Of a stretch of 64,000 nucleotides of DNA, positions 41,712-54,677 are shown piece by piece. How positions within the stretch are numbered: the first letter of the stretch is position 1; each line of letters begins with the position of its first letter. The translations under genes and the position numbers were made by a program. Origin of the DNA: Flavobacteriales bacterium (lineage in GTDB: Bacteria; Bacteroidota; Bacteroidia; Flavobacteriales; CAJXXR01); the NCBI GenBank assembly GCA_025210805.1, contig JAOAQX010000006.1, positions 124,001 through 188,000 on the forward strand, read 5' to 3'. The notes beneath the pieces were generated by a model. It had not been told where the DNA came from. It ran no database searches and saw only the letters and a program-made list of their open reading frames with translations.

Positions 41712-43076
41712 ATGCACTATAAAAATTGCATAAGAGGAATCTTTTTCATAATTCCGTTTTTGTCCTTAGCACAAGTGGGGATTGGTACGTCAAATCCAGA
41801 TGCATCGGCGATTTTAGATGTTACCTCCACTAATAAAGGGTTCTTACCACCAAGAATGACTGAAACCCAAAGAGGTGCTATCAATGGGGCTGTGGAAGGA
41901 CTTGTTGTATTCTGTACGGACTGCTGCACTGATGGAAGACTATCGTTTTATAATGGAACTGCTTGGACTAATATTCCAGGGTGTTCTCAATCAACAAATC
42001 TTGGTCCCTTAGAAGATAGAGATGGAGATGGAATTCCTAATAATGTGGACATTGATGATGATAACGATGGTATTTTAGACGCAGAAGAATATCAAACTAT
42101 TGTTTTGAATCAAGCTACGACTATTCCCACTGGGAACGGAAATCCTTATGGGGGAGCATCTTTAGATAGTCTCAATAGCTATACGGGATATAGAGGTTTA
42201 AGAATCTCAGATGCTTCAGGGCAATATGCCTTGGATATTGTGGACTTGTATCAAGATGATGCCAATGCCTCTGTACCTGCATCATTCACTTTATTAGGAC
42301 AAATTAAAGATTATAGTGGGAATGCTCTTAAAAATGGTCCAAGGGCTTATGCTGTTTTATTATTTACAACACAATACTCCCCAACACCATGGAAATTTGA
42401 TGAGTTGAATATTTCAGAAATAAATAGTTTATCTAGCCATAGTGCTACAAAAGATGCCTACTCATTTGAAAATGCTACATTATCGAATATCCCAACTCCT
42501 GGTCGAGACGCTGCCATATTCTATATAGACCCCAATAACTCTAATAAAATCGGTAATGTAAAAGATTTTGATCAAGATTATTCTACAAATCCAGCTGATT
42601 ATCAACCCTCAGACATCGGGAGTCAGGCGAGTTTCTCAACAGCTTATTCTAATTCAGGAAATTCTTTAAAAGAAGTCTTATTGAATATGGCAAACAGTTC
42701 GAGTAATCACTCACTTAAAGTTAGTTTTGATAGTTTATACACTCAAACAAAACTTCATCTATGGGATGCTGCACAAGCAAACAGTATGGGTTGGATATTT
42801 GAAGCAGCTACCTCCACGAGTACGCCTCAAGACTTCGACAACGACGGAATTCCAAATCACTTAGACACCGATTCTGATGGTGATGGTTGTTCGGATGCTT
42901 ATGAGGCTGGCTTAGCAGGAGCACAAGGGAATCCTAATTTCGCCTATGATATAAATAATGTAGGAGCCAATGGTTTTATAAACACCTTAGAAACCAATGA
43001 TGATGGAATACCTACTTATGGCGCTCTAAATTTATCGACTGCTGTGTATAATTCATCAAATACAACTTGTCCATAA
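41712..43076 (+). CDS. secreted surface protein with IGIGT module and calcium-binding type III repeats
   Basis: A 454-residue protein with a signal peptide ending near SLAQ. The mature protein starts VGIGTSNPDASAILDVTSTN and the module continues to PPRMTETQRGAINGAVEGL and YNGTAWTNIPGC. Two thrombospondin-type-3-like calcium repeats follow: DRDGDGIPNNVDIDDDNDGI (about residue 100) and DFDNDGIPNHLDTDSDGDG (about 375). Between lies an unassigned beta-rich region of about 250 residues. The C-terminus (SSNTTCP) lacks a recognisable T9SS domain. Likely an adhesin or matrix protein, adjacent to the second LytTR system. Confidence 0.8.
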   Translation: MHYKNCIRGIFFIIPFLSLAQVGIGTSNPDASAILDVTSTNKGFLPPRMTETQRGAINGAVEGLVVFCTDCCTDGRLSFYNGTAWTNIPGCSQSTNLGPLEDRDGDGIPNNVDIDDDNDGILDAEEYQTIVLNQATTIPTGNGNPYGGASLDSLNSYTGYRGLRISDASGQYALDIVDLYQDDANASVPASFTLLGQIKDYSGNALKNGPRAYAVLLFTTQYSPTPWKFDELNISEINSLSSHSATKDAYSFENATLSNIPTPGRDAAIFYIDPNNSNKIGNVKDFDQDYSTNPADYQPSDIGSQASFSTAYSNSGNSLKEVLLNMANSSSNHSLKVSFDSLYTQTKLHLWDAAQANSMGWIFEAATSTSTPQDFDNDGIPNHLDTDSDGDGCSDAYEAGLAGAQGNPNFAYDINNVGANGFINTLETNDDGIPTYGALNLSTAVYNSSNTTCP

Positions 43077-51330: not shown

Positions 51331-51363
51331 AAAAGCCTTCTGAGAAATCGGAAGGCTTTTTTA
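51331..51363. terminator. bidirectional terminator between the peroxiredoxin and phosphoesterase genes
   Basis: AAAAGCCTTC / GAAGGCTTTT perfect stem with a 10-base loop, T tract after it, A tract before it. Confidence 0.88.
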
Positions 51364-51389
51364 TGGTTCATTACAATGTCTTTTCTGTA

Positions 51390-52295
51390 TTAGGCTTCAA
51401 AAGCCGCCCAATAATCTTCTAAACACATGGGACCTTCAAGGGTTTCTTTTTCTATTTTAAGATATCCCATATCGTCAGTGATTATATGCCATTTTACAAG
51501 AGAAATATATCCGTACTGTATTTCAATAGCAGTAACAGAACGTGGATGCACTCCGCTTCCATCATTAAAAAAAGGCGTTTCATTTGGCGAGGGAAATCTT
51601 GGTCGATGCGTATGCCCTGCAATAACCATCGTTTTGGATTCATGAATCCATTTTTTTATTCTGCGTTCTACCCTAATAAGCTCGATATGATTTTGAGCAG
51701 GCGAAGTAGGATCATAAAAACCAAAAGACTGAAGCCATTTCCATATCAAACGAACAAAAAAACGATTGAATTTCCACATTGAATAATTCATGAAATCTGC
51801 CTGATGTCCATGCAGTGCTAATAGCGGAACTTGTCGATCTTTATACTGTATTCTTAGAGCTTCATGGTATTTGAGATTGGGCATAAAATCAACCATTTTA
51901 TCGGTTTTTGCATCCAGCATTTCACTAAAATGTCTTTTGACAGTTTTAGGATTTCTATAAACCATATCATGATTTCCCCAAATCATAAACAAACGATTGT
52001 CGTCATAAAAATCTTTTATCCTCAAAAAAGTGTTTTTATGAGCACGATATACCGTTTTAAAATAGATATTTTCCCAAAGCTCATTCCCGTCACCTAGCTC
52101 AATATAGGTAAAGCCCTCTTTAAAATAGCTTCCCAGAGCATGAGACATAATATTGCGGTTTTTAACGGCATCATCAGAGAAACCACCATCACCTCTATGA
52201 GCATCACTCATAAAAACAATTTTGGAATCATCATCTATCTTGAGTATTTCTGCCTCCTTGAGTGCTTTATTTAAACGTCTTCTAGAAAACCACAT
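51390..52295 (-). CDS. calcineurin-like metallophosphoesterase
   Basis: A 301-residue protein with the five metal-ligand motifs of the family: FMSDAHRGD, LGDGNELWE, IWGNHDM, ALHGHQAD and VIAGHTHRPRF. The order and spacing fit the family, but the middle insert (YSMWKFNRFFVRLIWKWLQ, about 170-190) is long and aromatic and may touch the membrane. Substrate unknown; it is not a clear LpxH. The 5' region holds repeat copy C. Confidence 0.88.
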   Translation of the reverse strand: MWFSRRRLNKALKEAEILKIDDDSKIVFMSDAHRGDGGFSDDAVKNRNIMSHALGSYFKEGFTYIELGDGNELWENIYFKTVYRAHKNTFLRIKDFYDDNRLFMIWGNHDMVYRNPKTVKRHFSEMLDAKTDKMVDFMPNLKYHEALRIQYKDRQVPLLALHGHQADFMNYSMWKFNRFFVRLIWKWLQSFGFYDPTSPAQNHIELIRVERRIKKWIHESKTMVIAGHTHRPRFPSPNETPFFNDGSGVHPRSVTAIEIQYGYISLVKWHIITDDMGYLKIEKETLEGPMCLEDYWAAFEA

Positions 52296-52398
52296 AATAC
52301 CATTTCTATTGTTAATTTACCGATATGTACCAATACTTTGTTCAAATTCTTTTGCGAATGTAGTGAAGTAAGTGGTATTCAACAAGTAATCGGTATAA
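52296..52398 (+). repeat. dispersed intergenic repeat, copy C
   Basis: AATACCATTTCTATTGTTAAT, CGATATGTACC, TTCTTTTGCGAATG, TAGTGAAGTAAGTGGTATTC and AACAAGTAATCGGTATAAT in order match copy B with deletions. It begins directly at the start codon of the phosphoesterase gene. Confidence 0.7.
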
Positions 52399-52525
52399 TT
52401 CTTCTTTTGGGAAGTAAAATTAAGGTTTCTAAAGGATTTTTGAGTTAATTTAGTCTTAATACCGATTGGAAATTCAGATGAGGAGTGAAAACTTATTTTT
52501 AAAAAAATCAGGAGCACTGTTCTTA

Positions 52526-53290
52526 TTAAACATTTAGAAACTGTATTCCTTCATAAATAAGAAACAAAGCAATGACTACCAACACATACCCTAAAACATG
52601 AATGAGTCGGTTGATATGTGATACTTTAAATTTTTTACGGTATTTAATTAGAAGATTAGTAAGTAATACAAACCACAGGTATCCTCCTATTGCAACACCA
52701 AGAGCATAAACAAATGACAGAATAAAATCTGAAGCGGTCTTCTCGCCCTGTACAGTTGTTTCAAGTGCTTTTGTGCCTTCTTCTAATATTTCCATATTCT
52801 GACTCAAAAGCATGTCTAATCCTCCGATGTTTAGTCCAATTGAAGAAGCAAAAGACAATAAAACAAAAGAAGAGGATAGCCATCCGAATAATAAAGTGGC
52901 ATTGGTGAGGTTTAGGAACATTCCTGCTCTTAAGCCTCCTTTATTTTTAATTTTACAATTAAGGTCTTCATTTTCATCAAATTGCTCAAAATCAAGTTTT
53001 GTTTTGATAATTTTATAAGCAACGCCTAATATAAAAACACTACCCACAAGAAGTATATATGGTACATAATCTTTATAATAATTATACAGTTTTGCCATCC
53101 CATATACCACAATAAGAACGTAGAATAGTTCTATAATACTTGCTCCTAAGGCTGCCCGAGTACAAAAACGCTTTCGTCCCTTTAAAGCATTAGAGGTTAC
53201 AACGACTCCTATAGGTCCTGCTACAGGCATTGAAAAGACAAAGCCCGCCAAAAGTCCTAAAATTCCAAGGGTAAAAATACTTTCTATCAT
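52526..53290 (-). CDS. LysE-family amino acid exporter
   Basis: A 254-residue inner-membrane protein with six hydrophobic segments. The first helix and loop GLLAGFVFSMPVAGPIGVVV, TRAALGASIIELFYV and NLTNATLLFGWLSS are family marks. Compared with typical LysE/RhtB (about 205 residues) it has an extra loop of about 40 residues between helices 4 and 5. Substrate unknown. Promoter box at 53307-53314. Confidence 0.85.
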   Translation of the reverse strand: MIESIFTLGILGLLAGFVFSMPVAGPIGVVVTSNALKGRKRFCTRAALGASIIELFYVLIVVYGMAKLYNYYKDYVPYILLVGSVFILGVAYKIIKTKLDFEQFDENEDLNCKIKNKGGLRAGMFLNLTNATLLFGWLSSSFVLLSFASSIGLNIGGLDMLLSQNMEILEEGTKALETTVQGEKTASDFILSFVYALGVAIGGYLWFVLLTNLLIKYRKKFKVSHINRLIHVLGYVLVVIALFLIYEGIQFLNV

Positions 53291-53306
53291 AGCGAAAATT
53301 TATAGA

Positions 53307-53314
53307 CAAAGTTA
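53307..53314 (-). promoter_or_regulatory. -7 promoter box TAACTTTG of the LysE gene
   Basis: Exact TAnnTTTG match on the minus strand, 16 bases before the start codon. Confidence 0.6.
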
Positions 53315-53466
53315 ATTGAAATTGTAACAATATCCTTAATATAATGACTAAGACAAACTTGCGTTATTCCAATAAATCAATGTATAAAATTAATATCCTT
53401 TTTACATTTAAAACGCCCATAAAGTCTTATAAATCAAAAATATACCACTAATATGACAAACAAGTT

Positions 53467-53482
53467 TATTTATCGATAAATA
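53467..53482. promoter_or_regulatory. 16-base perfect palindrome upstream of the candidate small RNA
   Basis: TATTTATCGATAAATA is identical to its reverse complement. Two further partial copies of TATCGA follow within 25 bases. It lies 46 bases before the -7 box of the RNA and could be an operator. Confidence 0.35.
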
Positions 53483-53527
53483 TAACGCAATTATCGATTA
53501 TCGAGTCTCTAATCACCAAAGAGGTCA

Positions 53528-53535
53528 TACATTTG
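53528..53535 (+). promoter_or_regulatory. -7 promoter box TACATTTG of the candidate small RNA
   Basis: Exact TAnnTTTG match. No -33 TTG at the usual spacing. Confidence 0.5.
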
Positions 53536-53540
53536 AATCA

Positions 53541-53632
53541 GAGTTAAGGAAACAAGTAGGAATTAATTCTTATTTGTTACTAAGATTTTTTGTGCGAGTT
53601 GAGACTGCCTTGGAGAAGGCAGTCTTTTTTTT
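53541..53632 (+). ncRNA. candidate small RNA, about 92 bases
   Basis: Between two minus-strand genes, a plus-strand promoter box (53528) is followed by a 13-bp hairpin AACAAGTAGGAAT / ATTCTTATTTGTT (53551-53578, fully paired with two G-U pairs), a 22-base single-stranded linker and a 10-bp terminator AGACTGCCTT / AAGGCAGTCT with nine T. No reading frame with a plausible start fits inside. Structure, promoter and terminator with no gene point to a trans-acting small RNA. I cannot place it in a known RNA family. Confidence 0.6.
53601..53632 (+). terminator. rho-independent terminator of the candidate small RNA
   Basis: AGACTGCCTT / AAGGCAGTCT with a four-base loop and a run of nine T; strand-specific because the left flank is not A-rich. 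Confidence 0.9.
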
Positions 53633-53715
53633 TGTGCACTTTTTCAAATTTTTTTTTCAACCCTTGTGACAAAAAAAACACCTTGGAATTAACCAAAGTG
53701 TTTTCTTTCTTTCTT

Positions 53716-53757
53716 GAGGTTATACCTATGGGAAAATTCACACCATTAAATGGTATA
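53716..53757 (-). repeat. dispersed intergenic repeat, fragment H
   Basis: On the minus strand ATACCATTTAATGGTGTGAAT, then CCCATAGGTATAACC: matches the first 40 bases of copy A (ATACCATTTATGGTGTAAT, then TCATAGGTATAATACC). Confidence 0.6.
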
Positions 53758-53762
53758 AGATT

Positions 53763-54677
53763 TTATTTTTTCACTTCCTTTCCTAAGAAATTATAAGTAA
53801 GTCCGATTCCCAAAACTTCTTTTAACTGTAGACCTGGAACTTTTCTTCCATCAGCTGTTTCTTGTACCAAAATATCATCGTCATAAATCATATCTAGCTG
53901 AAAGTTAACGTTGATATACTTATTTACCGTCATGGTAATTAAATTAGACCAGTTTACATCAATATTCTGTGGATTTTCTAGATAATTTGAGAACAATGCT
54001 AGAGTCGTTTCATATTTTACATTTTTCATCAACTCTGTCTTATAATTCGCAGTAAGGTTAAAACCAAGCTCTGTTCTTACTGAAGAACCTGCATCTAATC
54101 CATAACGAGTTTCATCTACCTGATCACTCAATACAAAAGTATTTTTCATGGTCACTGGAGAAATGTTTACCGAGAAATTATCGTTTGGCTTATAATCCAT
54201 ACCCAAACCTGTTTTCATAAATGCGGGTGCAAAGAAATTTGAGACAACAGTATCTCTTTCAGATGGATTTTGGAATCCGTAATCAAACTGTGTTTTCAAT
54301 TCCAAAAATGCTGAATAAAACCAATTTTTATTAGTTTTATAACCATATTTAGAATTTAGCTCGATAAGGTCATCTGACTTAAATATCTCTTTATCCCCTT
54401 GTTTAAGAAGACCATACCCTAATCTAAGGCTATTATCCCAGTTTGCCTTTCCTTTTTTATAATTTGCTTTACCATCAATAAATCCTACCAATGACATGCT
54501 GTTTTCACCTCCTGCTGCCCAGTTTTGAAGTGCTAATTGAGAAAAATTCAATCTTCCCACTGCATCATATTCCCAAAGTGGAGCTGGAGCCACATCAACA
54601 GTTTTTTCTGTCTTTTGAGCAAACCCAGTAGTAGCACATAAAGTTGCTAAGCCCAGCAATAGTTTATTTACTTTCAT
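53763..54677 (-). CDS. DUF3078 domain-containing outer-membrane protein
   Basis: A 304-residue protein with a signal peptide (MKVNKLLLGLATLCATTGFAQ). The family signature is GRLNFSQLALQNWAAGGENS, followed by alternating amphipathic strands (YGYKTNKNWFYSAFLELKTQF, and so on) and a C-terminal strand ending YNFLGKEVKK, typical of a beta-barrel. DUF3078 proteins are common in Bacteroidota and of unknown role. Monocistronic; three imperfect copies of TTCTAGCAT lie upstream. Confidence 0.9.
   Translation of the reverse strand: MKVNKLLLGLATLCATTGFAQKTEKTVDVAPAPLWEYDAVGRLNFSQLALQNWAAGGENSMSLVGFIDGKANYKKGKANWDNSLRLGYGLLKQGDKEIFKSDDLIELNSKYGYKTNKNWFYSAFLELKTQFDYGFQNPSERDTVVSNFFAPAFMKTGLGMDYKPNDNFSVNISPVTMKNTFVLSDQVDETRYGLDAGSSVRTELGFNLTANYKTELMKNVKYETTLALFSNYLENPQNIDVNWSNLITMTVNKYINVNFQLDMIYDDDILVQETADGRKVPGLQLKEVLGIGLTYNFLGKEVKK

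Follow-up and report, generated by a model that had tools for sequence, protein, structure and literature searches.

Why does a strong intrinsic terminator lie on the plus strand between two minus-strand genes, with no plus-strand gene for it to serve? The locus is found in a window of 64,000 nucleotides (G000:C6:124001–188000) from a 3.12 Mb Flavobacteriales genome whose family is sparsely sampled. A first-pass annotation had proposed that a promoter, a hairpin and a terminator form here a candidate small RNA unit without a gene, with a linker that could pair with mRNAs. The anatomy described is real: a −7 box, a hairpin and an intrinsic terminator, with a linker before the latter, follow one another on the plus strand (53528–53632) and no gene accompanies them on that strand (Table 1). 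Both neighbouring genes lie on the minus strand, as annotated. A plus-strand gene is indeed absent immediately upstream, the nearest one being found at about 2.3 kb and not beyond the 3 kb originally given. The analysis supports a promoter–hairpin–terminator unit that belongs to no gene as its leader or tail, and the locus is probably a genuine stand-alone sRNA gene. On balance, the favoured full explanation is a stand-alone noncoding RNA gene of ~92 nt, with its own promoter and terminator, whose linker would pair with mRNAs; this last part of the original proposal is kept as a hypothesis. A riboswitch, an adjacent gene's own terminator, a DNA operator and 6S RNA are disfavoured.

Table 1. 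Features of the locus, in positions of the window.
Feature	Position	Strand	Remarks
AhpC/peroxiredoxin gene	ends 51285	+	Nearest plus-strand gene upstream of the candidate
Terminator of the AhpC/peroxiredoxin gene	51331–51360		Its own
LysE-type gene	52526–53290	−	Left flank of the candidate
Putative −7 box TACATTTG	53528–53535	+	Bacteroidota type, TAnnTTTG; no TTG at −33
Predicted small RNA, ~92 nt	53541–53632	+	Fold z = −5.28; no internal ORF
5′ stem-loop (hairpin 1)	53541–53588	+	Core 53551–53578 is the tip; forms only as plus-strand RNA
Single-stranded linker UUUGUGCGAGUU, putative seed	53589–53600	+	12 nt in the full fold
Intrinsic terminator (hairpin 2)	53601–53633	+	Strong, one-way; stem 53601–53626, 11 pairs, 4-base loop, T run
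Terminator of the DUF3078 gene	53669–53704	−	Separate from the candidate's terminator
DUF3078 gene	53763–54677	−	Right flank, convergent with the candidate

The terminator proved as strong as first described (−17.3 to −17.8 kcal/mol), with T's extending to 53633, and on the minus strand it lacks a T run. It does not serve the DUF3078 gene, because that gene owns a separate minus-strand terminator, and it serves no other gene either, as expected for the own terminator of an sRNA. The −7 box lies upstream, 73 bp away, and is the sole TAnnTTTG on the plus strand within 51361–53640 (~2.3 kb). In the regions preceding genes on the same contig, this motif is 3.5 times as frequent as expected (48 observed vs 13.6 expected). 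The −33 element is absent from the candidate promoter, which is not disqualifying because the TAnnTTTG boxes of this contig are not preceded by a clearly conserved TTG position. The start predicted from the box coincides with the first base of the 5′ hairpin (53541).

The frequency of such terminators was surveyed over 1.788 Mb of the genome, taken in stretches with 1466 called genes, at a cut-off of −13 kcal/mol or better and with edge cases omitted. The survey yielded 419 terminators, 302 of them behind a same-strand gene and 68 orphan. Among the orphans 47 are seemingly two-way and 21 one-way, and six of the latter, including the candidate, which is the second strongest, have a TAnnTTTG 40–250 nt upstream. 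Candidates of this type are thus few in the 1.79 Mb surveyed, but the present one is not unique. At −15 kcal/mol or better, 37 terminators were found on both real strands vs none in a 188-kb strand simulated with a first-order Markov model. The remaining one-way orphans with a −7 box, at C7:216655–216696(−), C7:4226–4247(−), C28:13700–13729(+), C7:258770–258799(+) and C6:165297–165327(−), are further sRNA candidates.

Taken together, one-way and two-way orphan terminators are fairly frequent (68 of 419), which fits an unlikely but serious alternative, namely that the locus is a transcription barrier in which the weak hairpin 1 and then the strong hairpin 2 stop stray or antisense plus-strand transcription before the DUF3078 operon, the RNA being a by-product. 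Hairpin 1 is directly followed by a run of six T's, and a TTGAAA-18-TATAAT match upstream (53316–53345) is consistent with stray transcription, which could be antisense to the LysE gene. Against it, there is no second TAnnTTTG on the plus strand between 51361 and 53640, the convergent DUF3078 gene ends at a terminator of its own, and the orphans in the surveyed genome are mostly two-way, whereas this one is one-way.

The same Sigma70-like match at 53316 would be the origin of a longer plus-strand transcript that begins before 53528 and runs antisense to the LysE leader, 53541–53632 being only its 3′ end; alternatively, it would drive a short peptide gene, and a 35-codon ORF, read by eye, starts where the match ends. 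Both variants seem doubtful. Promoters of the Bacteroidota phylum are not known to be of the TTGAAA/TATAAT type, the ATG of the 35-codon ORF falls partly within the −10 box of the match, and no reading frame closes within the predicted RNA; the lack of a closed ORF inside 53541–53632 is what would be expected of a noncoding transcript.

The 92-mer folds with −30.7 kcal/mol (z = −5.28), an energy not reached by any of 200 shuffles. The core of hairpin 1, AACAAGTAGGAATT/AATTCTTATTTGTT, was initially taken to be a fully paired stem of 13 bp; the hairpin is there, but it has 12 pairs, two of them G-U, and a 4-base loop. The complete 5′ stem-loop has a fold energy of −12.8 kcal/mol on the plus strand vs −2.7 on the minus strand. 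It folds only on the plus strand because its non-Watson-Crick pairs are all G-U, which become A-C mismatches on the minus strand. Among 3000 sampled intergenic 48-mers, about one in 3000 reaches −12.8 kcal/mol while its complement stays above −4. This strand-specific folding argues for selection on a plus-strand RNA and not on a DNA palindrome. It is accordingly a very improbable reading that the hairpin is a regulator site in DNA next to a fortuitous terminator, without any RNA function. GAATTAATTC is perfectly palindromic and TTTATCGATAAA is found just upstream (53469–53480), but the mismatches of the core are G-T on the plus strand, tolerated in RNA and disruptive to a DNA palindrome, and TTTATCGATAAA is no more frequent in the genome than its control (4 sites each), so that it was rejected as an operator.

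The candidate is unlike any catalogued RNA family. No Rfam family matched the window at the gathering threshold, and at E 10 the locus gave only matches far under their gathering scores, none of them credible. Flavo-1, which the first-pass annotation had singled out for a covariance search, was found neither in the window at the gathering threshold nor in the locus at E 10. A structure-model search of 395 Flavobacteriales genomes, the source included, gave no homologue in the other 394, among them the only other member of the family; the other matches were rejected as homologues, since they look like terminators of unrelated genes. Plasmids and phages gave no match. In 59 other genomes, the family relative included, the LysE gene is unmatched at E 1e-15, and the DUF3078 gene has a differently arranged neighbourhood in that relative. 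As a consequence, there is no orthologous gap to align.

Regarding 6S RNA, 6S-Flavo (RF01685) matches at E ≤ 0.001 were found in 10 of 20 genomes searched and not in the source genome; the model is narrow, since none of these 20 genomes attains the Rfam cut-off. A weak match of 30.3 bits, at C26:65680–65821(−), adjoins zapA as in relatives and is likely the 6S RNA of the source genome; it is too diverged for the gathering score of 85 bits. That the candidate is itself a diverged housekeeping RNA of this kind, an idea raised by the missing match, has hardly any probability and was rejected, as this zapA-syntenic match lies elsewhere and the candidate fails to match 6S-Flavo even at E 10.

The part of the RNA left exposed is the linker, for which a length of 22 bases had been annotated; the full fold leaves 12 nt, since hairpin 1 reaches 53588. 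The 13-mer UUUUGUGCGAGUU (53588–53600) was chosen as seed before any target was inspected. Its complement, AACTCGCACAAAA, has one exact copy elsewhere in the 3.12 Mb, which ends on the ATG at C11:42133, the start of a secreted TSP3-repeat protein of 454 aa. A one-mismatch copy stands 2 nt before the ATG of a paralogue at C7:1299; the two products share a signal peptide, VGIGT...SAILDV...KGFLPPR, YCxxCC...FYNG and TSP3-type repeats. With up to one mismatch, there are two near-start matches vs a mean of 0.15 for shuffled 13-mers (1 of 120 shuffles has as many), and with up to two mismatches there are six vs 2.05 (0 of 120). Genomic 13-mers reach these counts in 0 of 120 and 1 of 120 cases, respectively. 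The positional enrichment near starts is modest, about 1 in 100.

Other measures do not extend this signal. The complements at up to two mismatches number 149 overall, below the reversed-pattern control (237), and the duplex energies of the linker across the whole set of starts do not surpass those of shuffled linkers (8 of 40 as good). Held-out linker-complement sites fall within 35 nt of a start in 2 of 22 cases. Targeting of the GFLPPR proteins as a family was rejected: its Mann–Whitney p of 8e-6 is partly circular, the signal being driven by the members that inspired it, and it failed on held-out paralogues; for paralogues not in the sample (the family totals 41 matches) linker pairing is no better than for average genes. 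Thioredoxin was rejected as a third target, its site lying 3′ of the stop. The pairing suggested by the first-pass annotation stays a hypothesis whose statistical support is modest. As a hypothesis, at most one or two targets, C11:42133 and C7:1299, may be indicated. The linker match may reflect shared ancestry of the two target leaders; the 150 nt upstream of the two genes look unrelated by eye. No Hfq is recognisable in the source genome. In its most specific form, which we regard as improbable, the proposal would be an sRNA specific to this lineage and independent of Hfq, with a linker, UUUUGUGCGAGUU, that occludes start codons in part of the secreted VGIGT/GFLPPR family (the CxxCC, TSP3-repeat subfamily). 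If true, occlusion by UUUUGUGCGAGUU would give a single RNA control over alternative surface proteins.

The secreted family is large in its own right, with one member in the window (41712–43076) and 40 further matches in the genome. Its proteins have a signal peptide, a VGIGTxxPxxSAILDVxSTxKGFLPPR segment and variable domains, and a subfamily carries YCxxCC and TSP3-like repeats. The two members searched gave no Pfam match over the cut-off.

From the sequence we infer transcription, the RNA ends and base-pairing as the mode of action. Transcription would run rightwards from the TAnnTTTG promoter at 53528 and would be ended by the unit's own intrinsic terminator (53601–53633). The 5′ stem-loop, with which the predicted transcript begins, probably protects its 5′ end, and the terminator hairpin would protect the 3′ end. 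The most likely mode of action is pairing in trans via the linker: the exposed 12 bases would most likely pair with translation-initiation regions of mRNAs without Hfq, and the pairing would repress translation, as with GibS in Bacteroides. GibS (BTnc035), an sRNA of Bacteroides thetaiotaomicron, pairs at start codons (PMC7366714). Like the candidate, it is a stand-alone intergenic sRNA in a host without obvious Hfq (PMC7366714). However, the 5′ end of GibS is largely unstructured and carries the seed, whereas that of the candidate is a hairpin and its exposed part is the central linker; GibS is also conserved in its genus, whereas the candidate has no known homologue.

Within the order, 85 newly described independent transcripts are available from Flavobacterium psychrophilum, 18 of the 45 non-antisense ones being strongly structured, and one of the RNAs, Rfp18, affects protease expression (PMC9723704). 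Rfp1–89 resemble the candidate as short, noncoding and independently transcribed RNAs from a Flavobacteriales member (PMC9723704), but they are detected, whereas the candidate is predicted; the comparison was made through the model search of the 395 genomes, which gave no homologue. 6S-Flavo is likewise a structured RNA of ~100 nt from the same order, whose model the candidate fails, and Flavo-1 is a structured RNA motif of the same bacterial group, from which the candidate differs in having no model match. The candidate is plausible as an ordinary sRNA. Bacteroidota sRNAs act independently of Hfq, and targets are known for few of them. Should it be transcribed, this RNA would be a clean, short and testable case from a family that has hardly been sampled, and two paralogous genes can be named as its candidate targets; otherwise the locus is an orphan terminator near a promoter-like box.

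Finally, the 39-bp right-hand unit of a dispersed intergenic repeat stands alone in the window at 53721–53759, 3′ of the DUF3078 gene. The repeat has more than 20 copies in the source genome and none was seen in the family relative. Full copies of roughly 110 bp, at C7:124822, C5:112643, C23:309008 and other places, read TTATACCGATTACTTGCTAAAA...TTTTAGCAATGTATCGGCA-TTATACCTATGAGTAAATTAACACCATAAATGGTATAA; with their inverted ends and a further inverted repeat inside, they are MITE- or REP-like.
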